In this document: piece after piece, positions 1,481 to 41,923 of the stretch
Position numbering within the stretch: position 1 is the stretch's first letter
How the letters are laid out: every line of letters starts with the position of its first letter
Assembly: GCA_019739225.1 (NCBI GenBank)
Contig: JAHHDT010000005.1
Span: forward strand, 930,001 to 994,000
Direction of reading: 5' to 3'
Source of the DNA: Aquamicrobium sp.
GTDB lineage: Bacteria > Pseudomonadota > Alphaproteobacteria > Rhizobiales > Rhizobiaceae
DNA length: 64,000 bases
Program-made: the position numbers and the translations under genes
Notes under the pieces: model-generated
Seen by the model: the letters and a program-made list of their open reading frames with translations, nothing else
Told to the model about the DNA's origin: nothing
Database searches by the model: none

Positions 1481-1505
1481 AATAATCATCTCGTGTTGTT
1501 TGTCA

Positions 1506-13200: not shown

Positions 13201-13228
13201 TAAGGCCACTGGGAGGAGTGACCGGCCG

Positions 13229-13969: not shown

Positions 13970-14002
13970 TCAACAAGCAGCAATCCAAGGGAGGATATCG
14001 AC

Positions 14003-14992: not shown

Positions 14993-15002
14993 GTTCGATA
15001 CA

Positions 15003-15025
15003 GGCCGGGGCGCTTTGCCCCGGCC
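15003..15025 (+). promoter_or_regulatory. Intercistronic GC hairpin between dctP and dctQ of TRAP system 1
   Basis: GGCCGGGGC and GCCCCGGCC form a perfect 9-bp stem with a 5-nt loop, 10 bp after the binding-protein stop. There is no T-tract. Position and strength suit a 3' stabiliser or partial attenuator that keeps the binding-protein mRNA more abundant than that of the membrane subunits. Confidence 0.6.
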
Positions 15026-15045
15026 GGTTGAGCGGGGAGGGCTCG

Positions 15046-15513: not shown

Positions 15514-15517
15514 CGAG

Positions 15518-16795
15518 ATGGGTTTCGCGGTCGTCATCGCCTTTCTAAGCCTGTTCCTGCTCGGCTTTCCGGTGGTCTATGCCATCCTGCTGCCGTCCAT
15601 TGCCTACGTTGTCCTTGAGGGGCTGCCGCTAGGACTGCTCGCCCAGCGCATCACCTATGCGCTCGACTCGTTCCCGCTGGTCGCGGTGCCGCTGTTCATC
15701 TTCGTTGGCAACCTGATGAACCTTTCGGGGATCACTGACCGGATTTTCCGGTTCGCCTACACGTTGGTCGGGCGCATTCCCGGCGGGCTAGCGCAGGTGA
15801 ACGTCTTCGGAAGCCTTGTCTTCTCCGGCATGTCGGGCGCCGCGCTCGCCGATATCGGTGGCCTCGGCCGCATCGAGATCGACGCCATGAAGAAGCGTGG
15901 CTTCGATCCAGCCTTTGCCGGCGCGGTGACCGGCGCCTCGGCGACGCTCGGTCCGATCTTCCCGCCATCGATACCGCTGATCGTCTACGGCTCCGTCACC
16001 AGCGTTTCGATCGTCCAGCTCCTCGTCGCGGGCATCATGCCGGCACTGGTGTGCACCGTGCTTTTGATGGTGACGGTCTTCTTCATCTCCACCTTGCACA
16101 AGCATCCGCGTGCCGAGCGCAGGGCAACTCCAGGGGAGATGGTGCGCGCCTTTTTGCCGGCACTTCCCGCGATTGTCGCTCCCGCCCTGATGATCGCCGG
16201 CATGACATTCGGCATCTTCACCCCCACCGAAGCCGCGGCGATGACGGCGGTCTACGTGATCGTCATCAGCAAGGTAGTCTATCGCGAACTGACGATCGAG
16301 CATCTTTGGCACTCTGCGGTACTGACAGCCCGAAGTTCATCCGCGATCCTGATCATCGTCGCGGCGGCAGCGCTCTTCGGTTGGATACTGGCCGTCGAAC
16401 AAGTCCCGCAGACCTTTGCCGCCGCGCTGCTGGGCCTGTCCACGGACCCGCTGATGCTGCTGATTATCGCCAACCTGATCTTCTTTGTGGCCGGAATATT
16501 CCTCGATTCTACGACGGCCACGCTGCTCCTGGTGCCGATCATCGCGCCGCCGCTGGTTATGGCAGGCGTCGATCCGGTCCAGCTCGGTATCGTCACCATC
16601 TTCAACCTGATGCTGGGACTGCTCACCCCGCCGATGGGGCTGTCGCTCTTCCTCGTGGCCGACATCGCAAAGGTCTCGATCAGAGAGCTTTTGAGGGCAC
16701 TCTTGCCTTTCTACATTCCGCTGCTGACCACGCTTGCGATCCTGACCTTTGCCAAGGATTTCACGCTGTGGCTGCCCCGACTGGTCGCACAATAA
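15518..16795 (+). CDS. TRAP transporter large permease (DctM), system 1
   Basis: About 425 residues from ATG 15518 (MGFAVVIAFLSLFLLGFP), the usual DctM length, with about a dozen hydrophobic segments. Family motifs present are SGMSGAALADIGGLGRIEI, ATLGPIFPPSIPLIVYGS and TPPMGLSLFLVADIAK, which form the sodium and substrate pathway. It is the transmembrane carrier of the TRAP system. The frame extends upstream into dctQ but the residues there are unrelated. Confidence 0.95.
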   Translation: MGFAVVIAFLSLFLLGFPVVYAILLPSIAYVVLEGLPLGLLAQRITYALDSFPLVAVPLFIFVGNLMNLSGITDRIFRFAYTLVGRIPGGLAQVNVFGSLVFSGMSGAALADIGGLGRIEIDAMKKRGFDPAFAGAVTGASATLGPIFPPSIPLIVYGSVTSVSIVQLLVAGIMPALVCTVLLMVTVFFISTLHKHPRAERRATPGEMVRAFLPALPAIVAPALMIAGMTFGIFTPTEAAAMTAVYVIVISKVVYRELTIEHLWHSAVLTARSSSAILIIVAAAALFGWILAVEQVPQTFAAALLGLSTDPLMLLIIANLIFFVAGIFLDSTTATLLLVPIIAPPLVMAGVDPVQLGIVTIFNLMLGLLTPPMGLSLFLVADIAKVSIRELLRALLPFYIPLLTTLAILTFAKDFTLWLPRLVAQ

Positions 16796-16813
16796 CTCCG
16801 GAGTTCAATCAAG

Positions 16814-17260
16814 ATGCGCATCGTCATCGGTTCCGACCACGCCGGCTTCCCGTTGAAGTCGACCATCGTCGAACATATCAAATCGCTAGGCCACGAAATC
16901 CACGACGCCGGCTCTTATGATCCGAACCCGGTCGACTTTCCCGACATCGCAAAAGCGGTGACCTCGGCGATCCTCGGCGGCGAGGCAGAGCGCGGGCTGA
17001 TGGTCTGCGGCACAGGCGTCGGCGCATCGATCGCCGCGAACAAGGTGAAGGGTATCCGCGCGGCCGTCTGCCACGACGTGCATTCGGCGCACCAGTCGGT
17101 CGAACATGACGACGTCAACGTCATGTGCATCGGGGCTCAAATCGTCGGTGCATGGCTCGCCAAGGATTTGGTGACGTCCTACCTTGAGGCGGAGTTCTCG
17201 ACCGATGAAGATTTCCGCCGCCGCGTGCGCAAACTGGCCGAGATGGACAACGAGCGCTAG
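16814..17260 (+). CDS. RpiB/LacAB-family sugar-phosphate isomerase
   Basis: 148 residues. The N-terminus MRIVIGSDHAGFPLKSTI, the active-site Cys loop GLMVCGTGVGASIAANKV and the CHDVHSAH histidines are those of ribose-5-phosphate isomerase B. The family interconverts aldose and ketose phosphates (ribose-5-P, allose-6-P, galactose-6-P, erythrulose-4-P). Because it stands 18 bp after TRAP-1 dctM rather than with pentose phosphate genes, it is more likely a catabolic isomerase for the phosphorylated TRAP-1 substrate than the housekeeping enzyme. Substrate unproven. Confidence 0.88.
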   Translation: MRIVIGSDHAGFPLKSTIVEHIKSLGHEIHDAGSYDPNPVDFPDIAKAVTSAILGGEAERGLMVCGTGVGASIAANKVKGIRAAVCHDVHSAHQSVEHDDVNVMCIGAQIVGAWLAKDLVTSYLEAEFSTDEDFRRRVRKLAEMDNER

Positions 17261-17436
17261 TCACAAGACAGCATCGGGCCGCCGGCGCCTTTGGCATTGC
17301 GCGAGCCGCGGCCTGCTGAGAGAAATTCCTCGACAGCCAGCGTGTCGCGGCTGATGGTCCCTAGGCGCAAGCGGGCTGACTGCGGCTCATATCCGACATT
17401 CGAACTCCAGGTCGGAACAAAGTGCTTCGCCACAGA

Positions 17437-17456
17437 TTACCTCCGGCAGGAGGTAA
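17437..17456 (+). promoter_or_regulatory. Hairpin sequestering the ribosome-binding site of the PQQ dehydrogenase
   Basis: TTACCTCC (17437-17444) and GGAGGTAA (17449-17456) pair perfectly over 8 bp with a GGCA loop. The 3' arm contains the complete Shine-Dalgarno GGAGG, 7-8 nt before the ATG at 17461, and the 5' arm is an exact anti-SD. In mRNA the ribosome site would be masked unless the stem is opened by temperature, a protein or an upstream ribosome. A GTG at 17422, in frame, would let a ribosome read through the hairpin. Confidence 0.6.
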
Positions 17457-17460
17457 CGTC

Positions 17461-19782
17461 ATGATGACTGCGTTTGCGATCGTACTGCTGCTATTGGGGT
17501 TGCTCGTTGGCGGTGGCGGAATCTGGCTGATCGCACTGGGAGGGTCGTGGTACTATCTGCTTGCCGGAGCCGCCTTTGCATTCACGGGCCTCGCCTTGTG
17601 GCGGCGCAACCCGATCGCTCTTTACGTCTACGCAGTCCTCGTGGTCGGAACGCTTCTTTGGGCCCTCCACGAAGTCGGAATGGACTGGTGGGCGCTGGCG
17701 CCGCGCGGCGGGCTGATCGTAGTGCTCGGCATCTTGTTGCTGGGCGTGCTGATTGGCCGGCGGCCACCCAATATGGCAGGTGCCTGGAAATGGGGCGGCG
17801 CAGCGCTTGGCGCGGCACTCTTCGCATCTGTTGCCGTCGCAGTTGCAGCAATGCTTGGCGAGCCTCACACCATCAAGGGCCAGGTGACGGACGCTGCGGA
17901 AAACTCATTGCCGCCGAGCGAGGCGACCGTGCCGCCTGAGCAATGGGTCGCTTACGGCCGCACGAGCGGAGGCAGCCACTATTCGCCGCTTGCAGCGATA
18001 ACGCCGGCAAATGTCGGCCAGTTGGAGAAGGCTTGGGAGTACCGCACGGGTGACATCCGCAACCCGGAAGTCGACCCGGAGGAAACGACATATGAAGTGA
18101 CGCCGACCATGGTCGACGGGTTACTCTACCTGTGCACGCCGCACCACATCGCGATTGCCCTCGATCCCGTCAGCGGCGAGGAACAATGGCGGCACGACGC
18201 CACCGTTGGGCACAATCAGATGCGGCAGCACCAGACGTGTCGCGGCCTCACCCACTACCGGGTCGAGGCAAGTGCCGATGCCGACTGCGCCAGCCGCATT
18301 CTCCTGCCGACGGCGGATGCCCGTCTGATCGCCCTGGACGCGAAGACGGGAGAAGAATGCGCGGGCTTCGGGCAGAACGGCGCGGTCGACCTGAGCGCCA
18401 ACATGCCGCATTTCTACGCGGGGTCGTACTACTCCACATCCCCACCGGTCGTGGCGAACGGGCTGATCGTGATCGGCGGTGCGGTCAACGACAACGTTTC
18501 AACCACCGAGCCGTCGGGTGTCATCAGGGCATACGACGCCGAAACCGGTGAACTCGTCTGGAATTTCGACAGCGGCAATCCCGAGCAGACCGAACCATTG
18601 GCTGAGGGGGAGACCTACGTCGGCAACTCCCCCAACGCCTGGTCCATGCTGTCGGTCGATGAGGAACTGGGGATCGTCTACGCCCCCATGGGCAACGCTC
18701 CGCCGGACCAGTATGGCGGCGACCGGACCGAGGAAACGGAACGGTTCTCCTCCTCCGTCACCGCTCTCGATCTTGCGACCGGCGAAGTGCGCTGGGTTCG
18801 CCAACTCGTACACCACGATCTGTGGGACATGGATACGCCTTCGCAGCCGCAGCTCGTCGACATCCGGCGCGACGACGGGGTGGTGCCGGCGCTGGTGCAG
18901 GCTACGAAACAGGGCGATATCTACGTACTCGACCGGCGAACCGGCGAACCGTTGCTGCCGGTCACCGAGGAAGCTGCGCCGCAGGGCGCCGTCGAAGGCG
19001 ATTTCACCGCCCCCACCCAGCCGCGCTCGGCGATGAGTTTCGCGCCAGACCCGCTGCGCGAGAGCGACATGTGGGGCGCGACCATGCTGGATCAGCTCTA
19101 CTGCCGCATCCGGTACCGGGAGTTGGACTACGAGGGCCGCTATACGCCGCCGTCGACCAACGGCACGATCGTCTATCCCGGCAATTTCGGAACCTTCAAC
19201 TGGGGCGGCGTTGCCGTCGATCCTGTGCGCCAGGTCGTCATCGCCAATCCCGTCTACCTGGCCTTCATCGTCAAATTGATCCCGCGCGCGGACGACACGA
19301 CCAGCTATGTGTCGGAACAGGAACCGGGTTTCAATGAGAACTATGGCGCTCCATATGCGGCCGAGATGCGTCCCTTCTGGTCGCCGGTAGGTCTTCCCTG
19401 CCAGCAGCCGCCCTGGGGTTATGTCGCCGCCGCGAGCCTCGAGGATGGCAGCGTGGTCTGGAAACATCGCAACGGCACGGTGCGAGACCTGTCGCCGCTG
19501 CCTCTGCCGTTCGAGATGGGCGTTCCAGCAATCGGCGGCCCTATCGTCACTGCGGGTGGCGTGGCCTTTCATAGCGGCACGCTGGACTATTACGTCCGCG
19601 CATTCGACGTGACCACCGGCGCCAAGCTCTGGCAGGACCGGCTTCCCGCCGGCGGACAGGCAACGCCAATGACCTATGAAGGCGCCGACGGGCGTCAGTA
19701 TCTCGTGGTGGTTGCAGGCGGGCATGGCTCGACGGGCACGAAACCGGGCGACTACGTGATCGCGTACACCTTGCCCGAGTGA
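17461..19782 (+). CDS. Membrane-bound PQQ-dependent dehydrogenase (glucose/quinate/shikimate family)
   Basis: About 773 residues from ATG 17461 with an optimal AGGAGGT. Five hydrophobic segments occupy residues 1-125, as in Gcd and QuiA, followed by a periplasmic eight-bladed quinoprotein propeller. Family segments include GRTSGGSHYSPLAAITPANV, LDAKTGEECAGFGQNGAVDL, VRQLVHHDLWDMDTPSQPQL and the C-terminal GGQATPMTYEGADGRQYLV. It oxidises a sugar or cyclic polyol in the periplasm and passes electrons to ubiquinone. PQQ synthesis genes are not in the window. Convergent with the LacI gene, 18 bp away. The link to TRAP-1 (oxidise outside, import the acid) is inference. Confidence 0.93.
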   Translation: MMTAFAIVLLLLGLLVGGGGIWLIALGGSWYYLLAGAAFAFTGLALWRRNPIALYVYAVLVVGTLLWALHEVGMDWWALAPRGGLIVVLGILLLGVLIGRRPPNMAGAWKWGGAALGAALFASVAVAVAAMLGEPHTIKGQVTDAAENSLPPSEATVPPEQWVAYGRTSGGSHYSPLAAITPANVGQLEKAWEYRTGDIRNPEVDPEETTYEVTPTMVDGLLYLCTPHHIAIALDPVSGEEQWRHDATVGHNQMRQHQTCRGLTHYRVEASADADCASRILLPTADARLIALDAKTGEECAGFGQNGAVDLSANMPHFYAGSYYSTSPPVVANGLIVIGGAVNDNVSTTEPSGVIRAYDAETGELVWNFDSGNPEQTEPLAEGETYVGNSPNAWSMLSVDEELGIVYAPMGNAPPDQYGGDRTEETERFSSSVTALDLATGEVRWVRQLVHHDLWDMDTPSQPQLVDIRRDDGVVPALVQATKQGDIYVLDRRTGEPLLPVTEEAAPQGAVEGDFTAPTQPRSAMSFAPDPLRESDMWGATMLDQLYCRIRYRELDYEGRYTPPSTNGTIVYPGNFGTFNWGGVAVDPVRQVVIANPVYLAFIVKLIPRADDTTSYVSEQEPGFNENYGAPYAAEMRPFWSPVGLPCQQPPWGYVAAASLEDGSVVWKHRNGTVRDLSPLPLPFEMGVPAIGGPIVTAGGVAFHSGTLDYYVRAFDVTTGAKLWQDRLPAGGQATPMTYEGADGRQYLVVVAGGHGSTGTKPGDYVIAYTLPE

Positions 19783-19800: not shown

Positions 19801-20853
19801 CTACTGCCGCGGCGGGATGTTCTCGCGGAAGATGACTTCCATGCTGAGGGGGGACTGGCGCGCCTCGCCGTTCGGCTTCAATTCAGCCGACTGCGAAAAT
19901 CGCTTGAGGGTCTGCGCGATGATCTGATCGGGATCGGAATTGATCACCGCGTCCATGACGCCGTCGATGAGGAGCCGCCTCGTGTCGGCGGTCATTCCGT
20001 GGCCGATGAAAACGATGTCGCCGCTCCTTTCGCGCTCGCGCAAAGCGCGGCCTATGCCGTCTGACGAGCCGCCCACATTGTAGATGCCGACCAGGTCGGG
20101 GTTCTGGTCCAGCAGCGAGAGCGTGTGGCGGTAGTTCTCGTTGCGGTCATCGTGGCCCTCGCGCATGCCAACGACGCGCAGGGCTGGGTAGGATTCTTCG
20201 AGCAGGCTGAGAAAGCCCATCTCGCGTTCCGCATGAGCACGGTAGTTGCGGCTGCCTGCAACCAGCGCGATGCTGCCATCGCGTCGTCCGCAAAACCGCG
20301 CGAGCAGCAGCGCCGCCGTGCGACCAGCGGCCTGGTTGTCGAGCCCGACATAGGCTTCGCGGCCGGGGTGGGGCAGGTCCGAAACGATCGTGACGAGCCG
20401 GGTGCCGCCTGCGCTCACTTCCTCCGCCGCCTCGCGCACCAGCGGGTGGTCGATCGCCATGAAGGCGATGCCGTCCGCCCAGCGAGCATGATGGCGCAGC
20501 GCCGTGGCCAGCGCGGCAGCGTCGAAGCTCTCGATAAAGAAGCAGCGCAGCGGCACGTCATCGCGCGAGCCCGTCTCGGCGATCTCTCGCACCTTGTCGC
20601 CGAGCAGCCGGAGGTATGGATTGGCGCCTTTCGGAAGCAGGAAGGCGACATTGGGTGGCCGAGGCGCCGACAACCGCTCACGCTCGGCCTGTTCCATGTA
20701 TCCGAGATCGACCGCCGCTTTCAGTACGCGTTCGACTGTCCGCGGCTTTACCCCTTTGCGGCGGTTGAGCACGCGGTCGACGGTGGCCAGGGACACGCGC
20801 GCGGCAAGCGCGACATCGGACATTGAGGGCAGGCTGTAGGCTTCCGATGGCAC
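19801..20853 (-). CDS. LacI-family transcriptional regulator divergent from TRAP system 2
   Basis: About 350 residues. The DNA-binding part reads SMSDVALAARVSLATVDRVL and the hinge region follows; the rest is a periplasmic-binding-protein-like effector domain (PPNVAFLLPKGANPYLRLLG, YVGLDNQAAGRTAALLLARF, IVFIGHGMTADTRRLLIDG) resembling those that sense sugars. The ending LKPNGEARQSPLSMEVIFREN is typical of this subgroup. Start is uncertain: GTG 20853 has a good TGAGGT site, ATG 20892 lies further out inside an inverted repeat, ATG 20823 would truncate the helix-turn-helix. It probably represses the divergent TRAP-2/RuBisCO-like operon. Confidence 0.9.
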   Translation of the reverse strand: MPSEAYSLPSMSDVALAARVSLATVDRVLNRRKGVKPRTVERVLKAAVDLGYMEQAERERLSAPRPPNVAFLLPKGANPYLRLLGDKVREIAETGSRDDVPLRCFFIESFDAAALATALRHHARWADGIAFMAIDHPLVREAAEEVSAGGTRLVTIVSDLPHPGREAYVGLDNQAAGRTAALLLARFCGRRDGSIALVAGSRNYRAHAEREMGFLSLLEESYPALRVVGMREGHDDRNENYRHTLSLLDQNPDLVGIYNVGGSSDGIGRALRERERSGDIVFIGHGMTADTRRLLIDGVMDAVINSDPDQIIAQTLKRFSQSAELKPNGEARQSPLSMEVIFRENIPPRQ

Positions 20854-20886
20854 GTCAAAATACCTCAGAAATGATTGTTTGACGTG
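20851..20886. promoter_or_regulatory. Inverted repeat in the lacI / TRAP-2 divergent region
   Basis: CACGTCAAA (20851-20859) and TTTGACGTG (20878-20886) are perfect 9-bp arms 18 nt apart, and an overlapping weaker TGAAG-n7-CTTCA lies at 20885-20901. Either could be the operator for the LacI protein, controlling both directions. The longer repeat also overlaps the proposed ribosome site of the regulator gene. Confidence 0.4.
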
Positions 20887-20977
20887 AAGCATCGCACTTC
20901 ATAGCCTTCTGTCAAGAGGAGCAGAGAGGTCGGCTATTGTCGTCGTGACCCCTCGTAATACATCAAGGGAGGCTATT

Positions 20978-21994
20978 ATGACCAAGCAGATGAACTTCAC
21001 CCGGCGCGGCGCGCTGGCCCTCGGTATCGGTGCTGGCGCGCTCGCCATGACGCCGCGCTGGGCGTCGGCGCAGTCGCTGACGCTGCGCTATGGCCACAAC
21101 AACGAACCGGCGAGTGTCGCCGGTGCGCAGGCCGACTGGTTCGCCGAAGCCGTCGCCAAGCATTCAGGTGGCGACATCGCGGTCGAGGTGTTTCCGTCGT
21201 CGCAACTCGGCAAGCTGCAGGAACTCGCCGAAGCGGTGTCGCTCGGCACCATTGCCTTCTCGCACAACACGGCAGGTGGCATCGGCTCGCTCTACGAGCC
21301 GTTCGGCGCACTCGACACGCCCTACCTCTACCGCGACGTCGATCATCTTATGAAAGTGATGGACGTCAACTCGCCGGTGATGCAGGAGCTGAACCAGGGT
21401 CTGATCGAGGCGGCCAATGTCCGAGTCATTTACGCCCACTATTTCGGGCGCCGCAACCTGACCTGCAACAAGGCCGTTTACAGCCCTGCCGATCTCGCCG
21501 GCGAAAAGATCCGGGCTGTGCCGTTTCCAATCTACCAGACGGCCATCGAAGGCATGGGCGCCGCTCCGGTTCCCGTCGACTGGTCGGAAGTGCCGACCGC
21601 GCTCGCCACCGGCGTCGTCGCCGGCCAGGAGAACCCGGTCAATGTCATTCTCAACGTCAAGCTCTACGAGGTGCAGTCGCATCTGATGCTGACGGGGCAC
21701 ATGTCCAACGCCGAGGTCGTCGTCATGAGTGAGGACGCCTGGCAGACGCTCTCCGATGACCAGAAGCAGGCAATCGAAGCAGCATCGCTGGAAATCCGTG
21801 AACGCGCGACCAAAGCGATCCAGGACAACGAGGAGAAGGAGACGGAAGAGCTGCGCAAGCTCGGAATGACCGTCATCGGCCCCGAGGATGGTCTCGATAT
21901 CGATGCCTTCCGCGCCTCTGTTTCCAAGCTTGTCGACGAGCGTTTCGGCGAAAAGTACGGTTCTCTCTACGAGAAGATCCGGGCGATCGCCTGA
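20978..21994 (+). CDS. TRAP transporter solute-binding protein (DctP family), system 2
   Basis: About 338 residues from ATG 20978 with AAGGGAGG upstream. The N-terminus FTRRGALALGIGAGALAMTP has a twin-arginine-like motif and a hydrophobic core, then SASAQ-type cleavage before LTLRYGHNNEP. DctP features are FPSSQLGKLQELAEAVSLG, TPYLYRDVDHLMKVMD, KIRAVPFPIYQTAIEGMGA and GVVAGQENPVNVIL. It should capture the substrate of the RuBisCO-like/kinase pathway encoded downstream, plausibly a branched or linear sugar acid. Ligand is inferred from context only. Confidence 0.92.
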   Translation: MTKQMNFTRRGALALGIGAGALAMTPRWASAQSLTLRYGHNNEPASVAGAQADWFAEAVAKHSGGDIAVEVFPSSQLGKLQELAEAVSLGTIAFSHNTAGGIGSLYEPFGALDTPYLYRDVDHLMKVMDVNSPVMQELNQGLIEAANVRVIYAHYFGRRNLTCNKAVYSPADLAGEKIRAVPFPIYQTAIEGMGAAPVPVDWSEVPTALATGVVAGQENPVNVILNVKLYEVQSHLMLTGHMSNAEVVVMSEDAWQTLSDDQKQAIEAASLEIRERATKAIQDNEEKETEELRKLGMTVIGPEDGLDIDAFRASVSKLVDERFGEKYGSLYEKIRAIA

Positions 21995-22019
21995 CGCGCG
22001 TTTCGGAGAGGTTGCGATC

Positions 22020-22541
22020 ATGACCGGCGGGCCCGCCAACACGGCGCGAACAGGCATGCTGGAAGCTTCGGCGACCGCATGCCGGGTGGCCGCGATGCTG
22101 CTGCTCGCGCTGATGTGTGCGCTGGTCGTCGGCCAGGTGATCGGCCGCAACCTCTTTGACACCGGCATGCCATGGGCTGACGAGCTGTCCCGCTTCTGCG
22201 GGGTGGCGATCGTTTTCCTGTGCATTCCCTTGCTGGGCCTGCGTGGCCAGCACGTCGCGGTCGACATGGTGCCTATGATGCTGCCTGATCGGTATCGCCG
22301 CTGGGTGTCGTTCTCCGTCGAACTGCTCGTGCTGGGCTTTGCCGGGCTGGCGTTGTGGGCGCTCTATGCCTTCCTCGGGCGCGCCTGGAAGTTCGCGACG
22401 CCGACGCTCGGCATTCCAAACTGGGTCTTCTACGCGCCAGCAATCATCGGCTTTGCCCTATTGGCCGTGGTGACGATGACACGGTTGGCAGCCCTGCTTT
22501 CGGGGCGGCCGCTGGAACCTTCCGACAAGGCACTGCCATGA
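22020..22541 (+). CDS. TRAP transporter small permease (DctQ), system 2
   Basis: About 173 residues from ATG 22020 (MTGGPANTARTGMLEASA). Four hydrophobic segments and the motif GMPWADELSRFCGVAIVFLC identify DctQ. The stop overlaps the dctM start by 4 bp (ATGA), so both are translated together. The gap to the binding-protein gene is 25 bp and, unlike systems 1 and 3, contains no strong hairpin. Confidence 0.9.
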   Translation: MTGGPANTARTGMLEASATACRVAAMLLLALMCALVVGQVIGRNLFDTGMPWADELSRFCGVAIVFLCIPLLGLRGQHVAVDMVPMMLPDRYRRWVSFSVELLVLGFAGLALWALYAFLGRAWKFATPTLGIPNWVFYAPAIIGFALLAVVTMTRLAALLSGRPLEPSDKALP

Positions 22542-23815
22542 GCATCGTCCTGATCGTCGTTTTCGCCGCAGCACTGATCGCCGGCGCACCGATAGCGGTG
22601 GCGCTCGGCCTGTCATCGGCCATCGCCATCTTCATGTTCGACCTGCCGCTGCATGTCCTGGCGCAGCGCGCCGTCAACGCGTTGGACTCGACGCCGCTGC
22701 TGGCGGTTCCGTTGTTCATCCTCGCGGCCTCGCTGCTCAACGCGATGGGCGTGACGACCCACATCTTCGACCTCGTGCGGCTGATGGTCGGCCGCATCCG
22801 TGGCGCGGTCGCCCAGGTCTCGATCCTGGTAAGCCTGATCTTCTCCGGTGTTTCGGGCGCGGCCCTTGCCGACATCGGCGCGCTCGGCAAGATCCAGATC
22901 GATCAGATGGTGGCTCAGGGCTACAAGAAGAACTTCGCCGCAGGCATCACCATCGCCGCTGCCACGATCGGTCCGATCTTCCCGCCTTCGATCCCGCTCA
23001 TCATCTACGCCAGCGTCACCAATGTCTCGGCGGTGCAACTGCTTGTCGCGGGCATCGTGCCGGCGCTGCTCATCACCCTGTTCCTCATGGCGCAGGTGGC
23101 GATCATCGCACGCTTCTACGACCTGCCGCGCGACACGGTCAGCCCGTCGCTGCGCGCTGTCGGCAAGAAGGCCGTCATCTCGCTGCCGGCGCTGATCGCA
23201 CCGATCATCCTCATCGGCGGCCTGCTCAGCGGCTATTTCGGCCCTACGGAAGTGGCCGGCGTCACCGTTGCCTATGCGCTGCTGATCGGTTTCTTCGTCT
23301 ATCGGACGCTGACCTTCGGCGCGGTGTGGGAAAGTTTGCGCGAAACGGTCGAGGCAACCGGCGGCATCCTGTTCATCGTGTCGACGGCGGCCGTCTTTGC
23401 CTGGGTGCTGACACTGGATCGCGTACCAGCCATTGCCGGGGAGTGGCTGCTCGGCATTTCCGACAACCCGCTGGTGCTGCTGTTGCTGGTCAACCTGCTG
23501 CTGCTGGTCGTGGGCATGTTCCTGGAATCGATCGCAGCGATCCTGATCATTGCCCCGATCGTCGCTCCCGCTCTTCACGCGGCCGGCGTCGACCCGCTGC
23601 AACTCGGCATCGTCTTCGTGCTGAACCTGATGATCGGTCTGCTCACGCCGCCGATCGGAATGAGCCTCTACATGGTATCGATAATCGCCAAAATGCCCGT
23701 CCACAGCGTGGTGCGCGGCGTCTTGCCGTTCTTCATACCCCTCATCCTTTCATTGCTGGTTGTCTCCACGGTGCCTGCCGTCTCGACCTGGCTTCCCCAA
23801 CTACTTTCCCGATAG
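22538..23815 (+). CDS. TRAP transporter large permease (DctM), system 2
   Basis: About 425 residues from ATG 22538 (MSIVLIVVFAAALIAGAP). Motifs SGVSGAALADIGALGKIQI, AATIGPIFPPSIPLIIYASV and LTPPIGMSLYMVSIIAKM match the DctM family and are close to system 1, suggesting related substrates or duplication. It forms the transport channel in the inner membrane. Upstream in-frame residues belong to the shadow of dctQ. Confidence 0.95.
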   Translation: MSIVLIVVFAAALIAGAPIAVALGLSSAIAIFMFDLPLHVLAQRAVNALDSTPLLAVPLFILAASLLNAMGVTTHIFDLVRLMVGRIRGAVAQVSILVSLIFSGVSGAALADIGALGKIQIDQMVAQGYKKNFAAGITIAAATIGPIFPPSIPLIIYASVTNVSAVQLLVAGIVPALLITLFLMAQVAIIARFYDLPRDTVSPSLRAVGKKAVISLPALIAPIILIGGLLSGYFGPTEVAGVTVAYALLIGFFVYRTLTFGAVWESLRETVEATGGILFIVSTAAVFAWVLTLDRVPAIAGEWLLGISDNPLVLLLLVNLLLLVVGMFLESIAAILIIAPIVAPALHAAGVDPLQLGIVFVLNLMIGLLTPPIGMSLYMVSIIAKMPVHSVVRGVLPFFIPLILSLLVVSTVPAVSTWLPQLLSR

Positions 23816-23823
23816 GTCTTTCC

Positions 23824-24363
23824 ATGAGCAGGTTTCTGGGCGCGATCCGTCAGCTCGGCTACGTCGTCGACGACATCGAAGCGGCAATGGCGCACTGGCA
23901 CGAGGTGATGGGTGTCGGCCCGTGGTTCTACAACCCGAAGGTGCCGATCGAGGACTATCTCTACGATGGCCAGTCCTACCAGCCGCACAATTCAGTGGCC
24001 TTGGCCAACAGCGGCTACATCCAGGTCGAGCTGATCCAGTGTCGCAACGACGTTCCATCCATGTATCGCGATTTTCGCCTTGCCGGCCATCGCGGGCTGC
24101 AACATGTCGCTTTCTGGACGCAGGACTACGACCGCGATCTCGCCCGCATGGAGGCCGAAGGCTTTTGCCGCAAGATGAGCGGCAAGGTCGGCGAGAACGG
24201 CCGGTTTGTCTACTTCGACCGTGAGGCGCATCCAGGCACGGTGATCGAACTGTCCGAGGTGATGGGCCCGAAGGGTCGCATGTTCGATATGATCCGTGCC
24301 GCCTCACAGGACTGGGACGGGCGCGATCCGGTCCGCCCGTTCCCCGACCTGTCGGCGATCTGA
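23824..24363 (+). CDS. VOC-superfamily (glyoxalase/bleomycin resistance fold) protein of unknown reaction
   Basis: About 179 residues from ATG 23824, 8 bp after dctM. It has the VOC layout: RQLGYVVDDIEAAMAHWHEV at the start of the first beta-alpha-beta-beta-beta unit, GPWFYNPKVPIEDYLYDGQS in the middle, and in the second unit GLQHVAFWTQDYDRDLARME with a metal-ligand His and a later Glu in TVIELSEVMG. VOC enzymes bind a divalent metal and do isomerisations, dioxygenations, decarboxylations or epimerisations. It sits between a TRAP system and a RuBisCO-like gene, so it probably acts on a pathway intermediate; it could replace the missing oxidoisomerase or epimerase step. No recognised subfamily. 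Confidence 0.85.
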   Translation: MSRFLGAIRQLGYVVDDIEAAMAHWHEVMGVGPWFYNPKVPIEDYLYDGQSYQPHNSVALANSGYIQVELIQCRNDVPSMYRDFRLAGHRGLQHVAFWTQDYDRDLARMEAEGFCRKMSGKVGENGRFVYFDREAHPGTVIELSEVMGPKGRMFDMIRAASQDWDGRDPVRPFPDLSAI

Positions 24364-24370
24364 GGCAGCG

Positions 24371-25645
24371 ATGAGACGCGAGACCGTCGAGGCCACCTAT
24401 CTGATCGAGACGCCGCTCGATCCCCAGAAGATCGCGGCGATCATGGCCGGTGAACAGTCGAGCGGCACTTTCGTCAAGGTGGCCGGCGAGACCGATGAAT
24501 TGCGGGCACGGGCGGCGGCCGACGTTCTGTCGGTGGAAACGCTGGAGAGTGTCGACGCACCCAGTCTTGCGAGCGCCTATCTCGAGCGCAAGAAGGTTTC
24601 CGGCCCTTGGTGGCGCGCCAGGGTACGTGTCGCTTATCCGGTCGCCAATATCGGGTCAAACCTGCCGACCCTGGCTGCGACTGTAGCCGGCAACCTCTAC
24701 GATCTGGGCGAAGTGACCGGCCTGCGACTCCTCGACATCTCCCTGCCGCAGGCCTATCGGGACCGCTTCGACAAGCCCCAGGTCGGAATCGCCGGCACGC
24801 GTGCCAGCGTCGGCGCCCATGACCGGCCGCTGTTTGGAACCATCATCAAGCCCAACGTCGGCATGAGGGCGCCCGAGATTGCCGATCTTGTCGAACTGCT
24901 GTGCAACGCAGGTGTCGACTTCATCAAGGACGACGAGATCTGCGCCGACCCGGACCACGCTCCGCTGGCCGAACGCGTGCCGGCGGTTATGGCGCGTATC
25001 CGCGCCTACCGCGATCGCACCGGTCGCGACGTGATGATGGCCTTCAACATCACCGACGAGACGGACGCCATGCGTCGCCACGCCGCGCTCGTCGAGCGCG
25101 AGGGCGGCTCCTGCGTGATGACCAGCCTCAACTGGTGCGGGCTGTCGGCGATGCAGTCGCTGCGCCGCGCCACGCCACTCGCAATCCACGCTCACCGCAA
25201 CGGCTTTGGAGCCTTCGCTCGCCATCCTCTGCTGGGCATCGGCTTCGACGCTTATCAGGCGCTCTACCGTCTTGCCGGCGTCGACCATATGCACGTCCAC
25301 GGTATCGGTGGAAAGTTCTCCGACCAGGCTGACGAGGTCGAAGCCGCGGCGCGGCGCTGCCTCGCGCCACTCGCGGTCGATGCATCCGGAGAGACCGACG
25401 CCGTGATGCCGGCTTTCTCGTCCGGTCAGTGGGCGGGTACGCTCCCGGTGACCGCCCGGGCGGCCGGCTCCAGTGACTTCCTGTTCATGGCGGGCGGAGG
25501 CATTCTGGCTCATCCCGATGGCCCGGCGGCGGGCGTACGCAGCCTGCGGCAGGCCTGGGAGGCCTTGGCGCAGGGGGAAGCCCTCGAAACCGCTGCCGCC
25601 GCGCGGCCGGAACTTGCCGCGGCCCTTCGTTTCTTCGGCGGCTGA
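24371..25645 (+). CDS. RuBisCO-like protein (form IV; OiaX-type, 3-oxo-isoapionate-4-phosphate family)
   Basis: About 424 residues from ATG 24371. The catalytic barrel keeps K160 (GTIIKPNVGM), the carbamylation Lys and metal ligands K186, D188 and E189 (VDFIKDDEICAD), H275-R276 (IHAHRNGFG) and loop-6 Lys 315 (GIGGKFSDQ), plus the phosphate-binding FSSGQW and AGGGILAHPDG. With all of these kept, an enolisation-type chemistry on a phosphorylated beta-keto acid is likely. Characterised relatives beside a four-carbon acid sugar kinase decarboxylate or transcarboxylate/hydrolyse 3-oxo-isoapionate 4-phosphate. It directly precedes such a kinase here. Not a carbon-fixing RuBisCO: no small subunit and divergent N-terminal domain. 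Confidence 0.88.
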   Translation: MRRETVEATYLIETPLDPQKIAAIMAGEQSSGTFVKVAGETDELRARAAADVLSVETLESVDAPSLASAYLERKKVSGPWWRARVRVAYPVANIGSNLPTLAATVAGNLYDLGEVTGLRLLDISLPQAYRDRFDKPQVGIAGTRASVGAHDRPLFGTIIKPNVGMRAPEIADLVELLCNAGVDFIKDDEICADPDHAPLAERVPAVMARIRAYRDRTGRDVMMAFNITDETDAMRRHAALVEREGGSCVMTSLNWCGLSAMQSLRRATPLAIHAHRNGFGAFARHPLLGIGFDAYQALYRLAGVDHMHVHGIGGKFSDQADEVEAAARRCLAPLAVDASGETDAVMPAFSSGQWAGTLPVTARAAGSSDFLFMAGGGILAHPDGPAAGVRSLRQAWEALAQGEALETAAAARPELAAALRFFGG

Positions 25646-25646
25646 C

Positions 25647-26900
25647 ATGGCGGAGATCGTCTTCATCGGCGATGACTTCACCGGCGCTTCCGACACGCTG
25701 GCAACGTTCGCGGAGCGCGGCGCAACGGTTCGCCTTTTTCTGCATGCCCCGGAGGCAGGCGAAACGGACGGGCTCGAAGTCGTAGGCATTGCAACCGACC
25801 TGAGGACACGGTCGCCTGACGAGATTGGCGCTCGGTTGCGTGTTCTCGCCCAGGCGGTCATGCGGCTCGCCCCCCGTTTCGTCCATTACAAGGTCTGCTC
25901 GACCTTCGATTCAGCGCCGGAAGTCGGCAGTATCGGTGCCGCCGTTCTCGCGCTTGAGAGCGCAGTCGGGCCTGACCGGACGATCCTGCTTGGCGGCCAG
26001 CCCAGCCTCGGCCGCTATTGCCTCTTCGCCAATCTGTTCGCGCGCGGGCCGAAAGGCCTCACCCATCGCATCGACCGGCATCCGATCATGCGGTCACATC
26101 CGGTGACGCCCATGGACGAGGCCGATTTGCGAATCCATCTGGCAAGGCAGGGGCTTGGTGACCTCGCCTTGGTGGACCGTACGGACCTGCACTCACTTTC
26201 GGATCCCCTGGGGTCGGATGCACGCCGCGTTCTTGTCGATGCGGTGGAGCAGCGCGATGTGGATCGCCTCGGCGAGGTGTTGCGCGGCCCAGCGAGGAGC
26301 GGCCTGACGCTCTTGGTCGGAGCGAGTGGTGTGGCCGAAGCGCTGGTTCCGTCCGGGCAGGCAACGATGCGCCCGGTGGAAGACGCCGGCCCTCAAGCCG
26401 GACCTATCCTGGCCATTGCGGGCAGCCGTTCCTCCGCGACAGCGGCGCAGGTTGATGCCGCTAGCAGTTACGAGCGTCTGCCGGTCGATCCCGGCGACCT
26501 GGCGCATAATTCGCAGCTTGTAGAGCGAAGCGTCCGGCTTCTTTCCGCCGGCCGGAATGTCCTCGTCCATCTTCAACCCGGCACGGACTATGGCTGCGAG
26601 CCGGCGATATTGTCTCAGTTCCTGGCCGAGCTTACGAATACGATCCTTGGTCAATGCACCCCCGGCGGGGTCGCCGTCGCCGGCGGCGACACGTCGAGTG
26701 CGGTCGTCGAACGACTTGGCTTTCGGAGCCTTTCCTTTGTGAAGCGGATGGGAAGCGGAGTCGCAGTTTGCCGGGGCCACGCCATCGACGGCACGGTTTG
26801 CCGAACGACGCTGCTTCTCAAGGGCGGCCAGGTGGGCGACGTCGATCTGTTTGACCGATACGCGGCTGAAGCGGCCAATAGCTGCGATCACAGCCGCTGA
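25647..26900 (+). CDS. Four-carbon acid sugar kinase family protein (DUF1537; OiaK-like)
   Basis: About 417 residues from ATG 25647, one base after the RuBisCO-like stop, hence co-translated. The N-terminal domain has IGDDFTGASDTLATFAERG, the acid-sugar-binding motif of this family; the C-terminal nucleotide-binding domain has the glycine loop VAVAGGDTSSAVVERLG. Family members phosphorylate erythronate, threonate, 2-oxo-tetronate or 3-oxo-isoapionate. Pairing with a RuBisCO-like protein points to the last, making the substrate for that enzyme. Last gene of the TRAP-2 operon. Confidence 0.9.
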   Translation: MAEIVFIGDDFTGASDTLATFAERGATVRLFLHAPEAGETDGLEVVGIATDLRTRSPDEIGARLRVLAQAVMRLAPRFVHYKVCSTFDSAPEVGSIGAAVLALESAVGPDRTILLGGQPSLGRYCLFANLFARGPKGLTHRIDRHPIMRSHPVTPMDEADLRIHLARQGLGDLALVDRTDLHSLSDPLGSDARRVLVDAVEQRDVDRLGEVLRGPARSGLTLLVGASGVAEALVPSGQATMRPVEDAGPQAGPILAIAGSRSSATAAQVDAASSYERLPVDPGDLAHNSQLVERSVRLLSAGRNVLVHLQPGTDYGCEPAILSQFLAELTNTILGQCTPGGVAVAGGDTSSAVVERLGFRSLSFVKRMGSGVAVCRGHAIDGTVCRTTLLLKGGQVGDVDLFDRYAAEAANSCDHSR

Positions 26901-27204
26901 CGCACCAAACGACCGGCCAAGTCACATCGAGCTTCCTGTAGCCTACACGGTCTTCACGTCTAAGGTGTTGGCTCATTCTTCCTCGAAGCGGCGAAGACGG
27001 GTCAAGGCCTCCACCTTGACGAATGGAAATGGGCGACGACCGGCAAAAAAACGAGGACCGATAGTTGGTTCATAAGTAAGCGCTGGTTGCAGTTATGTAC
27101 CACCCAAGGTTGCTAATGGGGGCATTCGGCCTGTAAGGTGCGACCCGCCGATGCGGGGCTCCTTGATGTCTTGCCGATTCGGCAGGGCAAGAGGGGAAGT
27201 GGCA
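26901..27204. other. Intergenic region ahead of the autotransporter gene
   Basis: About 300 bp. No convincing gene. The stretch 27060-27120 is more AT-rich than its surroundings and is where a promoter would be expected: TTGCAG at 27087-27092 and GCTAAT about 19 bp later are the best but weak match. No hairpin terminator after the kinase is evident. Confidence 0.35.
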
Positions 27205-30200
27205 ATGCCAGGTGCGGGGCGGTTTGTGAGCAGGGTTTTCCTGCACTTTGGCGTGATTCTGTTGGCGTTGATCGGCTTTGCGATGCAGGCTGCTTGCGCC
27301 GTCATCCACGCGGGCAGGTCAGTTGCTGGTCGTTGCTGCCGGCATATTCTGCTTCCGGCACTTCGGCCTTCGCGTGCCTTTGCCGGAAGCATGCTCTATT
27401 GCACATTCGTGCTTGCGGCCTTTCTGTTGCAGTCGGCGCCTGCGTTTGCGCAGACATCGGCTTACTGCCCCACGCTGAACGCCACCGTTGCCAATGGCGG
27501 ATCGGTAATGATCGACGTCAGCGCTTGTGACGGACCGTTCGACGGCGGCATGAGCGGGCCGATCGCACCGTTCGCCCAGCATGGCACGGTGACCATCGGC
27601 AGCAACAGCGGCGGTATACAGTTCGTCACCTATGCACATAGCGGCGATGCGGCGACGAGCGATCAGTTCGCCCTTGAAGACAACGACCTGGGTGTCGTGA
27701 CTGTCAACATAACCATCGACCCGCCGGCCTCGCCGATCACGGTTTCGCCAGCCTCGCTCCCGAGTATGACCGCAGGAACCGCGTTCAGCCAGTCGCTGTC
27801 GGCAACTGGCGGTACGGCGCCTTACACCTACAGCCTGCAGTCAGGATCGCTCCCTGTCGGAATCTCCCTGACTTCCGGGGGACTGCTGAGCGGAACCCCG
27901 ACGCAGCGCGGTGGTTACGCCTTTACCGTGAGGGCGACCGACGACATCGGCCAGTTTGTCGACAAGGGCTACACCGGCACGGTGCTGAACCCGACGATCT
28001 CCATTACGCCGACATCGGCGACAGCCATTCAGGGCGTATCGTTCTCGCAGACCATCTTCGCCAGCGGCGGTGTAGCGCCTCATACCTTCGCGGTGGAAAG
28101 CGGCCTTTTGCCTGCTGGGATATCCCTGTCCAGCAGCGGCCTTCTCAGCGGCACCACTTCCAGCGCGCCCGGATCTTACCCTCTGACGCTGCGGGTCACG
28201 GATTCCAGCACCGGACCGGGTGTGTATTTTGAGCTTGAGAACTTTACTTTGACGGTTGCACCGGCACCGTCAGTGTCCATCAGCGTCAGCCCGGCCTCGG
28301 TGAGTGAGGACGGCGCAGCCGAGCTGGTTTACACGGTCACGCGCAGCCAGAACCTGGCGACCCCCACTCTCGTCAATCTCGGTTACAGCGGCAGCGCGGA
28401 TGGTAGCGACGACTATGCCGGTGCGACCTTGACCGTGCTCATTCCGTCCGGCTCGACGAGCGGCATCGTGGTGATAGATTCGTTTGCCGATCCCATCGCG
28501 GAGGCGGACGAGACTGTAATCATTAGCATACAGAGCGGCTCAGGCTATACCGTCGGTGCGCCTTCCTCTGCCACAGGCACGATCCTGAACGACGACTTTG
28601 GGGTTCTGACGATCAACAATGTCACCGTTCCCGAGGAGGACTCCGGAACTCAAACGATATCGTTCACAATATCGCTCAGCCAGCCTGCTGGACCCGATGG
28701 TGTAACGTTCGACATCGCAACGGCCGACGGCACAGCGACAGCAGGCGAGGACTACGAAGCAACCAGCTTCGTGGGTGCCCAAATCGCGCAAGGCGGGAGC
28801 ACGTATAGCTTCGATGTTGATGTCTACGGTGATACGTCCAACGAACCCAATGAGACGTTTTTCGTCAACATAACCAACGTGACAAACGCTATCTTGGGCG
28901 ATGGCCAGGGCGTGGGCACCATCGTCAACGACGACCTTGCGGGCCCGTCGATCACCAACATTTCGCCGAACAATGGTCCGGCGGCAGGCGGCACGTCGGT
29001 GACGATCACCGGAACGAACTTCACGGGCGCAACGGCCGTGACCTTTGGCGGCACGGCGGCTGCGAGTTTCACCGTCAACAGCAGCACAACTATTTCGGCG
29101 GTGACGCCGGCAGGGACGGCCGGGGCGGTGGATGTGGCGGTAACGACACCCGGCGGCACGAATACCGAAACGGGTGGCTTCACCTACACGGCCGCCACGT
29201 TACCTGAATTGTCGATCGACGACGTCACGGTGGGCGAGAACGGCGTCAATGCTTCCTTCACCATAACTCTGAGCGCTCCCGCTGGACCGGGTGGAGTAGC
29301 GTTCGACGTCACCACCGCAGATGGCACGGCGGTCGCCGGCGACGACTACTACGCCTTCAACGGCTCCGGCTTTATAACTGAGGGTGAGGACACCTACCGC
29401 CACGGGGTCGGAGTGATCAGCGATGCGATCGACGAACCGGACGAGACCTTCTTCCTCGATATCACCAACGTTGTCGGCGCGACGCTCGTAAAGGCGCGGG
29501 GAACGGCCACGATCAACGACGACGCGCCCACAATCACCGTGGCTCCTGCCAGCCTTTCCGATGCGACAGTCGGGGCGCCCTATAGTGCAACCGTGACCGC
29601 CAGCGGCGGGACGGGTCCATACACCTATGCCGTCACCGCGGGCGCCTTGCCCGGGGGCCTGACGTTGACCTCCCCGGGCACACTGTCCGGCACGCCAACG
29701 GCAGAGGGCACGTTCAATTTCACCATCACCGCGACCGACAGCAGCGGCGGAAACGGGCCATATACCGGAAGCAGAGCCTACACGATCGCCGTCGCTGCGC
29801 CCACTGTGACGGTGAGCCCAGCTACATTGCCTGCAGGAACCGTCGGCACGGCCTTTAGCCAGTCCTTGACCACCAGTGGCGGAACAGCACCATATAGTTA
29901 TGCCGTCACGGCCGGCGCCTTGCCTTCGGGCATGAACCTGAGTTCAGTGGGTTTGCTTTCCGGTACCCCTACGGCGGGCGGGACATTCAACTTCACCATT
30001 ACCGCCACCGACAGCAGCGGCGGAATCGGGCCGTACACCGGCAGCAGGGCCTATACGCTCACCGTCGCGGCGCCCGTCATCGCCCTGAGCCCCGGCACGC
30101 TGCCGTCCGCCACTCAAGGTGTCGCCTACGCGCAGACCGTTACCGCCAGTGGCGGCACCGCACCTTATACTTATTCGATTACCGGTGGCTCTTTGCCCCC

Positions 30201-39878: not shown

Positions 39879-39897
39879 GATCTTTCTCCGCTGTCAG

Positions 39898-39913: not shown

Positions 39914-39924
39914 ACAGAAATGAT

Positions 39925-41918: not shown

Positions 41919-41923
41919 GGGTG

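Follow-up and report, generated by a model that had tools for sequence, protein, structure and literature searches.

A conserved TRAP-linked operon pairing a VOC protein with a RuBisCO-like protein and a DUF1537 kinase, and its possible role in sugar-acid breakdown

An operon for a VOC protein, a RuBisCO-like protein and a sugar-acid kinase

We analysed a 64,000-nucleotide stretch of an Aquamicrobium sp. genome (contig JAHHDT010000005.1; hereafter the window) that contains a divergent lacI gene followed by genes for a tripartite ATP-independent periplasmic (TRAP) transporter, a vicinal oxygen chelate (VOC) protein, a RuBisCO-like protein (RLP) and a DUF1537 kinase (Table 1). Every product from LacI to the kinase scores above its Pfam cut-off. 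The junctions from dctP to the kinase gene measure 25, -4, 8, 7 and 1 bp, with dctM overlapping dctQ in an ATGA motif; lacI // dctP-dctQ-dctM-VOC-RLP-DUF1537 kinase is thus one tight unit. An earlier reading of the window, made from the letters alone (the sequence-only reading), had each gene of the operon and the divergent lacI in its place. Its description of the junctions as ATGA or 1-bp couplings holds for two of the five; the remaining three are wider.

Table 1. Genes and control region of the VOC-RLP-kinase operon (positions in the window)
Feature	Position	Strand	Evidence
lacI, LacI-family regulator, divergent	19801-20892	-	Pfam LacI 44 bits; Peripla_BP_4 (sugar-type sensor domain) 126 bits
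lacI-dctP intergenic region	20893-20977	no strand	CCTCGTAATACATCAAGGGAGG directly 5' of dctP, similar to words common to relatives
dctP, TRAP solute-binding protein, presumed sugar-acid binder	20978-21994	+	Pfam DctP 200 bits
dctQ, TRAP small permease	22020-22541	+	Pfam DctQ 98 bits
dctM, TRAP large permease	22538-23815	+	Pfam DctM 366 bits
VOC protein, 179 aa, proposed metal-dependent isomerase	23824-24363	+	Pfam Glyoxalase_4 74 bits (gathering score 27)
RLP, VOC-linked clade	24371-25645	+	Pfam RuBisCO_large 214 bits
DUF1537 sugar-acid kinase	25647-26900	+	Pfam SBD_N 151 bits, NBD_C 69 bits, both above cut-offs

The VOC-RLP-kinase trio is a fixed cassette among the nearest relatives

We searched for relatives of the RLP with a pattern scan of one genome per species, covering 84,980 species, and found 223. 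The best 80 of the 223 by RLP similarity (65-87% identical) were extracted from named genomes with flanks of up to 10 kb, such that the uniformity of these loci describes this RLP clade and not RLPs in general. The presence of neighbouring genes rests on tblastn, the gene caller behind our neighbour clusters being crude. All 80 loci have a VOC gene and a DUF1537 kinase gene beside the RLP gene in the same order, with the VOC gene on the RLP strand and beginning 532-728 bp before the RLP match, and a lacI match is found in 78 of them (79 of 81 with the window included). Little is conserved downstream of the kinase, where the commonest gene cluster occurs within 8 kb in 11 of the 80 loci, and in four when only same-strand genes within 6 kb are counted; hence, the kinase gene is most likely the last of the operon. 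We conclude that the VOC-RLP-kinase trio is a fixed cassette among the nearest relatives of the window, a feature that the sequence-only reading, which proposed a neighbourhood survey for the trio, had missed.

Of the three enzymes, the VOC protein has changed least: across 88 loci its median identity to the window is 77% (range 69-94%), and those of the RLP and the kinase are 69% and 45%. The cassette is sparsely distributed. An RLP at least 60% identical occurs in one of 289 genomes of the class, the window's own, and a VOC protein at least 58% identical in 22 of 297 genomes of the order; the VOC-RLP clade is represented in Alpha-, Beta- and Gammaproteobacteria. RLP-kinase modules were also taken from plasmids (10 of 60 listed matches) and from 398 genomes of the phylum. 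The two genome collections may share genomes (the VOC proteins of loci L053 and L223 are identical, as are those of L016 and L232), and locus counts are therefore partly non-independent. Among the matches listed in the open-licence PubMed Central (PMC) literature we found no description of a VOC-RLP-kinase operon, which is weak evidence, subscription papers lying outside that scope.

The RLP belongs to a VOC-linked clade that keeps RuBisCO active-site residues

The top-scoring NCBIfam model for the window RLP is OiaX (NF042437), at 400 bits against a cut-off of 700, the relatives above that cut-off scoring 760-786. We rejected assignment as a true RuBisCO, since the RLP is below both NCBIfam cut-offs (type III, 246 bits, cut-off 497; large subunit, 225 bits, cut-off 438), and as the methionine-salvage enzyme MtnW (150 bits, cut-off 513.6). 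The sequence-only reading had named clustering with methionine salvage as an outcome that would contradict it, and this did not come about.

By their neighbours, RLP-kinase modules are of four types: OiaX with ApnO, ApnL and an apiose-type dehydrogenase; another RLP with ApnO; an RLP with a short-chain dehydrogenase/reductase (SDR); and an RLP with a VOC protein. We built a tree of 68 RLPs that includes 32 of the 80 named-genome loci and omits L027 and L089 (open reading frames of 571 and 882 aa). Forty VOC-linked RLPs, including that of the window, form one clade, and OiaX forms another, apart from it (support 100/100 for both). Hence, by tree position as well as by score, the RLP is not OiaX. 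The sister of the VOC-linked clade (85/92) is a 17-row clade (100/98) of ten ApnO-linked, three SDR-linked, three unassigned and one VOC-linked RLP; the remaining four SDR-linked RLPs lie outside it, one of them beside OiaX on a long branch. The VOC-linked RLP inside the ApnO clade is that of genome G484 (L162; support 99/88), showing that the VOC protein is paired with two RLP lineages.

The window RLP keeps the catalytic residues E28, N108, K160, K186, D188, E189, H275, R276, H308, K315 and S350, among them the carbamylation lysine, metal ligands and loop-6 lysine (K186, D188, E189, K315) that the sequence-only reading had correctly picked out. We compared residues over the RLP groups with L162 set aside. 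In RuBisCO numbering, RLPs of the VOC clade and of the ApnO/SDR type keep E60, T65, N123, K175, K201, D203, E204, H294, R295, H327, K334, S379 and G404, with F for W66 and S for G380. All five OiaX proteins have D, G, Q and G/C at E60, N123, H327 and S379, whereas the RuBisCO equivalents are kept in 20 of 20 ApnO-linked, SDR-linked and unassigned RLPs and in the window RLP. Given these kept residues, the window RLP resembles the ApnO/SDR-linked RLPs, which are presumably of the OiaT/hamamelose type, rather than the decarboxylase OiaX. The VOC clade and the ApnO/SDR-linked RLPs have the same majority letters at the checked positions except at the K177 site (N versus S), and at conserved positions the VOC-clade RLP differs from other RLPs by N162 (the K177 site), H310 and T357.

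PDB entry 3NWR is a crystal structure without assigned function, whose molecule name, 'A rubisco-like protein', gives none; we take its source to be Burkholderia. It scores 757 bits to the Burkholderia VOC-linked RLP of L071, 604 to the window RLP and 437 to an ApnO-type RLP, and it carries the VOC-clade letters at N162, H237, A238, H310 and T357 in an alignment read by eye. Judged by sequence, 3NWR is a member of the VOC-linked clade.

ApnO and ApnL have no match in the window genome

The kinase belongs to the DUF1537 family, with both the SBD_N and NBD_C domains present. Its top NCBIfam model is OiaK (NF042436), at 202 bits against a cut-off of 700; this cut-off is narrow, since six kinases of other RLP modules also fall below it (278-527 bits). 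ApnO and ApnL had no match in the window genome (7 contigs, 98.6% complete, so that a small gap remains), which has one RLP match in a search with OiaX, and the same queries matched five of five (ApnO) and four of four (ApnL) control genomes. The sequence-only reading had noted that an apionate oxidoisomerase and lactonase were missing, as our searches confirm, and the standard apnO gene nearby that it said would speak against it did not appear. Of its proposed new variant of the 3-oxo-isoapionate pathway, the part that stands is a variant pathway with an RLP and a DUF1537 kinase; since neither protein is OiaX or OiaK by score, 3-oxo-isoapionate is not to be assumed as the intermediate.

Across 89 VOC loci we found no ApnO, no Gfo-type dehydrogenase, one generic SDR (5.7 kb away) and two ApnL relatives, whereas among 26 RLP loci without a VOC gene ApnO is present in 14 and an SDR in nine, one locus carrying both, which makes 22 in all. 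The two ApnL (apionate lactonase) relatives lie ~8.5 kb from the RLP gene of the VOC operon at L177 and L038, and the genome with L177 (G563) also carries an ApnO-type RLP module elsewhere. SDR-RLP-kinase modules occur at L083, L085, L087, L155, L157, L159, L166 and L240, and in five the TRAP permease is closely similar to those of VOC modules; these modules are candidates for hamamelonate (2-carboxyarabinitol) use. A second DUF1537 kinase of the window genome lies on another contig (C6; L178, 8489-11349) beside genes that by eye resemble those for a class II aldolase and a shikimate dehydrogenase, and perhaps belongs to a separate set of 3-oxo-tetronate type.

The same upper half occurs with a PdxA-kinase-aldolase lower half

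Among the 22 genomes of the order with a VOC protein, eight have no VOC-clade RLP, although three of the eight have a 41% identical RLP elsewhere. All eight carry PdxA, a DUF1537 kinase, a DeoR regulator and a DhnA/DeoC-family aldolase. This set adjoins the VOC gene in five genomes of one genus and lies within ~8 kb of it in two of another family; in G758, PdxA adjoins the VOC gene and the aldolase is far off. LacI, TRAP and VOC genes also lie beside a PdxA-kinase-aldolase set on a plasmid of Azospirillum thermophilum; in a set of 72,556 plasmids, no other record has either the aldolase or PdxA at 60% identity or more. We then considered 28 VOC genomes, 22 from the VOC search (at least 58% identity, window included) and six from the RLP-family search, with the PdxA-type lower half represented genome-wide by its aldolase. 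The aldolase (at least 60%) is found in eight and a VOC-clade RLP (at least 60%) in 18; none has both, and two have neither. The 20 genomes other than those eight have no aldolase at 60% or more, and four of them have weak matches of 25-32%. Of the two genomes in neither class, G484 has its VOC gene beside a 55% identical RLP, and G836 has LacI-TRAP-VOC alone with no RLP or kinase beside it, its only RLP match lying elsewhere in a module with ApnO, ApnL, a Gfo-type dehydrogenase and a kinase.

According to the well-supported branches of a VOC tree, the partner must have switched between RLP and PdxA three times or more. The PdxA-linked VOC proteins of L224 and L230 nest inside RLP-linked VOC proteins of the DctPQM type, and the LacI and DctP proteins of these loci are of the window type (59% and 79-80% identity). 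PdxA scores above the general PdxA cut-off and resembles 2HI1 (PdxA2) and 6E85 (D-threonate 4-phosphate dehydrogenase) most closely; the aldolase, whose broader family includes LsrF, scores 133 bits with the LsrF model, under its cut-off of 297. A DUF1537 kinase with a PdxA-family dehydrogenase is the pair used in the D-threonate kinase/PdxA2 pathway, and a similar pair forms the alternative lower half beside the same VOC protein. Unlike that pathway, the alternative lower half adds the DhnA/DeoC-family aldolase and the DeoR regulator; PdxA, aldolase and DeoR are all absent from the window operon. The upper half (TRAP, VOC and mostly LacI) and the two lower halves (RLP-kinase or PdxA-kinase-aldolase) look like exchangeable modules, which suggests that the VOC protein catalyses an upper step and that the RLP belongs to one of two interchangeable lower halves. 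Hence, we place the VOC protein before the kinase. The sequence-only reading had also proposed that the VOC protein acts on the acid before the kinase, which is the likely order; it had not picked up the pairing of the VOC protein with the PdxA-kinase-aldolase set. That one upper half is followed by either an RLP or a PdxA-aldolase set restricts what the intermediates can be and makes the pathway testable with a handful of purified proteins.

The VOC protein is a candidate metal-dependent isomerase

The VOC protein falls within its superfamily by Pfam score (Table 1) and by its conserved candidate ligands, and NCBIfam has no family for it. In 89 sequences, 71 of 179 positions are invariant. 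The residues Q10, E69, H94 and E142, which we take to have the metal-ligand roles of the four-ligand pattern of VOC enzymes, are invariant in 47 aligned VOC proteins down to 33% identity; in a second alignment (42 rows), E142 is conserved in at least 90% of rows and not invariant. The candidate ligand Q10 presumably sits where the epimerases have His. The predicted structure (predicted local distance difference test, pLDDT, 94) has as its best match 3GM5, a putative methylmalonyl-CoA epimerase (Z 16.9), and solved epimerases match at Z 10.7-12.9. The protein thus shares its fold and the four-ligand metal-site pattern with methylmalonyl-CoA epimerase and glyoxalase I; unlike them, it stands in a sugar-acid operon with no CoA or glutathione link, and it is at most 29% identical to these proteins.

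VOC superfamily isomerases act via metal-bound enediolates, and the imported acid should therefore carry a carbonyl. Dioxygenases of the 4-hydroxyphenylpyruvate dioxygenase (HPPD) type have a 2-His-1-carboxylate metal site; with a single His among the four ligand candidates, we disfavour an Fe(II) dioxygenase of this kind. An additional VOC relative, at L228, is ~31% identical, and G484 carries a 50-52% identical VOC relative as well as its operon-type VOC protein.

LacI and the TRAP transporter accompany the VOC gene

A LacI match lies within 9.5 kb in 87 of 89 VOC loci, versus none of 26 RLP loci without a VOC gene (tblastn, E 1e-8); at one of the latter, L085, a different LacI-family gene is annotated nearby. 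In the intergenic regions upstream of dctP, each of the 15 commonest 8-mers occurs in 19-25 of 82 regions, compared with a maximum of five after shuffling; they include CATCAAAA (21 of 82), CCTCAAAA (21 of 82) and AAAACCAT (20 of 82). The window has a variant of this stretch at 20940-20980. On sequence grounds the stretch could be a LacI operator, although the signal partly coincides with the ribosome-binding site, which the commonest shared 8-mers overlap. A palindrome pattern search gave 44 matches against 31 expected, and the operator search found no inverted repeat.

All three transporter proteins score above their family cut-offs, placing the system among TRAP importers. A DctQ match, indicating the DctPQM type, is found in 54 of 81 loci. 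A second type has a ~640-aa permease (a cluster in 20 loci, annotated as a TRAP large permease in related plasmid loci), and its binding proteins are 24-30% identical to the window DctP. R159 and R179 of DctP are invariant in 41 aligned binding proteins. The predicted DctP structure (pLDDT 89.8) matches many TRAP binding proteins tied at Z 36-39; among the nearest are 4NQ8, 4PDD, 4PDH, 4P9K and 4PAK, some of them reportedly solved with pantoate or D-erythronate, and the DctP ligand is not readable from structure.

A possible redox-free route to the substrate of the RLP

Related RLPs and DUF1537 kinases provide the framework for a pathway. Carter et al. (2018) reportedly described D-apiose/D-apionate catabolism with OiaK and either of the RLPs OiaX or OiaT, and Kim et al. 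(2018) are said to have described the RLP of a D-hamamelose pathway in Ochrobactrum anthropi. Related kinases and RLPs act on 2-hydroxy-3-oxo acids that are phosphorylated next to the ketone. A passage of PMC6302742 names decarboxylation and transcarboxylation/hydrolysis of 3-oxo-isoapionate-4-phosphate as RLP reactions, and the part of PMC8914248 concerned with the last step of the hamamelose pathway gives 3-phosphoglycerate and glycolate as products, in unclear wording.

The window operon shares with the D-apionate pathway an RLP, a DUF1537 kinase, a proposed phosphorylated branched 3-oxo acid and an RLP clade whose sister is mostly ApnO-linked. It differs in that it has a VOC gene instead of ApnO, ApnL or an apiose-type dehydrogenase, a TRAP rather than an ATP-binding cassette importer, and an RLP and kinase below the OiaX and OiaK cut-offs. 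As in the D-hamamelose pathway, the RLP would act last. SDR-RLP-kinase modules may be of the hamamelose kind, and in several the TRAP permease closely resembles those of certain VOC modules, but they have SDR dehydrogenases instead of a VOC protein and RLPs outside the VOC clade.

With gene content, linkage, clade, conserved residues and alternation of lower halves as observed, we infer the substrate and four reactions as follows. The TRAP system would import a sugar acid bearing a carbonyl. The VOC protein, as a metal-dependent isomerase of the methylmalonyl-CoA-epimerase/glyoxalase-I type, would shift a proton via an enediolate to give a 2-hydroxy-3-oxo acid, HOOC-C(OH)(R)-CO-CH2OH; an aldose-ketose type isomerisation of a 3-C-carboxy-aldose would yield such an acid without redox chemistry. 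This step would stand in for the NAD-dependent ApnO (apionate) or SDR step of related modules, so that no dehydrogenase would be needed. The DUF1537 kinase would phosphorylate the terminal hydroxyl, and the RLP would carry out a RuBisCO-like decarboxylation, recarboxylation and hydrolysis, in an OiaT-like manner, to give 3-phosphoglycerate and a small acid R-COOH; no further gene would then be needed. In some other bacteria, the TRAP and VOC upper half (several with LacI) would instead feed PdxA dehydrogenase, a kinase and an aldolase. We favour this reading, in which one self-contained operon under LacI control takes up and breaks down a carbonyl-bearing sugar acid by means of a VOC isomerase, a kinase and an OiaT-like RLP, while giving it slightly less than an even chance. 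The conserved operon type itself, for which we found no existing name, we regard as a new form of sugar-acid catabolism by RLP and kinase, in which a VOC protein stands at the front and the lower half can be exchanged.

The nature of R would set the substrate. With R = CH2OH the intermediate would be 3-oxo-isoapionate, which G836 and G484 allow. The aldolase of the other lower half would fit better if R had a hydroxylated carbon, e.g. R = CH(OH)CH3 in aceric acid, which is 3-C-carboxy-5-deoxy-L-xylose. If the operon served aceric acid, the VOC protein would be an aldose-ketose isomerase giving 3-oxo-isoapionate with CH(OH)CH3 replacing CH2OH, and the kinase and RLP would produce 3-phosphoglycerate and lactate without redox steps. 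In the alternative lower half, PdxA would oxidise the second beta-hydroxyl of the phosphorylated ketose and decarboxylate it to the LsrF substrate, which is 3-hydroxy-2,4-pentanedione 5-phosphate, and the DhnA-type enzyme would cleave this to dihydroxyacetone phosphate and an acetyl unit. Each enzyme would then keep the chemistry of its own family. Aceric acid is the boldest candidate, and we regard this particular substrate as doubtful. It is a branched acid sugar of plants and is named as a rhamnogalacturonan-II sugar in a passage of PMC12168206; among the matches listed in the open-licence PMC literature there was no paper on its catabolism, which is weak evidence.

Few RLPs have known reactions, and almost all of the RuBisCO active site is retained in the VOC-linked clade. 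Should the favoured reading be correct, there would be another, redox-free route to a compound that is cleaved in RuBisCO-like fashion, the VOC superfamily would gain a new activity, and the operon would serve as a test case of RuBisCO chemistry in sugar-acid breakdown.

Alternative readings of the operon

Several observations weigh against a VOC isomerase that makes a dehydrogenase unnecessary. To our knowledge, a sugar isomerase working by a 1,2-proton shift is not an established VOC activity, and it would be the first of its kind. HPPD-type dioxygenases (Z up to 12.2) are tied with the solved epimerases (Z up to 12.9) as structural matches behind 3GM5. VOC relatives at 39-52% identity (L210, L211, L212, L218-L222, L231) have no RLP, kinase or PdxA beside them, indicating that the family has other uses; those at 50-52% (L218-L222 and L231, six genomes of one genus) and L210 (47%) have no readable pathway around them, L211 (41%) lies among Rieske-dioxygenase and acyl-CoA genes, and L212 (39%) lies near SDR, major facilitator superfamily and AMP-binding genes. 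The PdxA of the other lower half looks by sequence like a true dehydrogenase, so oxidation may be part of the pathway, and G484 and G836 may mean that the VOC product is 3-oxo-isoapionate itself. Lastly, one VOC-RLP operon was found with a dehydrogenase inside it: L209, on a plasmid of Neorhizobium sp. NCHU2750, reads LacI // SDR-SBP-TRAP-VOC-RLP-kinase (SBP, solute-binding protein), and is a natural key to the order of steps.

This SDR is one argument for treating the VOC protein as an epimerase or helper, with the 3-oxo acid made, as in hamamelose- or apionate-type modules, by a dehydrogenase encoded elsewhere, be it an SDR or the membrane pyrroloquinoline quinone (PQQ)-dependent dehydrogenase that adjoins lacI in the window. 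A 54% identical relative of the L209 SDR is one of two SDRs beside the RLP of L240, a module without a VOC gene, and PdxA is of an oxidative family. We nevertheless consider this reading rather unlikely, since the 89 VOC loci (L209 not among them) share no conserved dehydrogenase, in contrast to the 22 of 26 RLP loci without a VOC gene, and since the window PQQ dehydrogenase occurs in none of the 45 largest neighbour clusters of the RLP relatives and was accordingly rejected as a fixed partner. L209 is also compatible with a VOC protein that shifts a hydroxymethyl group as a ketol isomerase, equivalent to ApnO's isomerase half detached from its dehydrogenase, with the route still passing through 3-oxo-isoapionate. 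The pairing in G484 of the VOC protein with an RLP of the ApnO/SDR clade points the same way, as does the lone LacI-TRAP-VOC of G836, whose only RLP match is in the ApnO/ApnL/Gfo/kinase module. Such a route requires 2-oxo-apionate, imported or otherwise made, a compound that we do not know from nature; the VOC-clade RLP deviates at N162, H310 and T357, and the aldolase would free formaldehyde from the decarboxylated C5 acid. We therefore think it improbable.

The known D-apionate pathway with OiaK and OiaX and an unlinked oxidoisomerase is the least probable reading, and one that we reject in its standard form: although OiaX and OiaK are the top NCBIfam models, both proteins score far below the cut-offs, the RLP lies outside the OiaX clade with other catalytic residues, and ApnO and ApnL are without a match in the genome, whereas the same queries matched all control genomes. 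A different possibility retains the upper half of our favoured reading and makes the RLP a plain decarboxylase or an oxygenase, with unlinked enzymes finishing the pathway. Both decarboxylation and transcarboxylation/hydrolysis are among the reactions named in the passage of PMC6302742, and an RLP oxygenase figures as a title in the reference list of PMC10176493. The window RLP retains RuBisCO residues that the decarboxylase OiaX has lost, and the aldolase is lacking at 60% identity or above from the other 20 VOC genomes, with the few 25-32% matches described above; we judge this possibility unlikely. Its likelihood and that of the OiaT-like reading overlap in the shared upper half, and our five likelihoods do not sum to one.

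Surroundings of the operon

Upstream of the operon and convergent with lacI, the gene at 17422-19782 encodes the PQQ-dependent dehydrogenase, a member of the glucose/quinate/shikimate family and a possible periplasmic oxidation step. Further upstream, at 13115-17260, is a second, separate TRAP operon comprising a GntR regulator, dctP, dctQ, dctM and an RpiB-type isomerase, which passes the rpiB cut-off but not the one set for the model of D-erythrulose-4-phosphate isomerase. The DctP of this second operon shares 36% identity with the DctP studied here. We rejected rpiB and this TRAP operon as part of the pathway, since an rpiB match occurs in one of 81 loci, the window itself.

Downstream of the operon lies a gene for a 2368-aa autotransporter (27151-34257) with Calx-beta, He_PIG and cadherin-like repeats, including a 297-bp unit repeated 5.1 times at 31060-32581. 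The region 35389-45408 encodes, by Pfam, an HgmA-like protein, a flavin mononucleotide-dependent hydroxy-acid dehydrogenase, a fumarylacetoacetate (FAA) hydrolase and an HPPD-like protein, and by eye a further TRAP system and an AMP-binding ligase; it resembles a homogentisate-type aromatic route. At the left end of the window (155-3101) are a phage portal protein, identified by Pfam, and an integrase-like open reading frame recognised by eye, with no Pfam match at E 1e-8.

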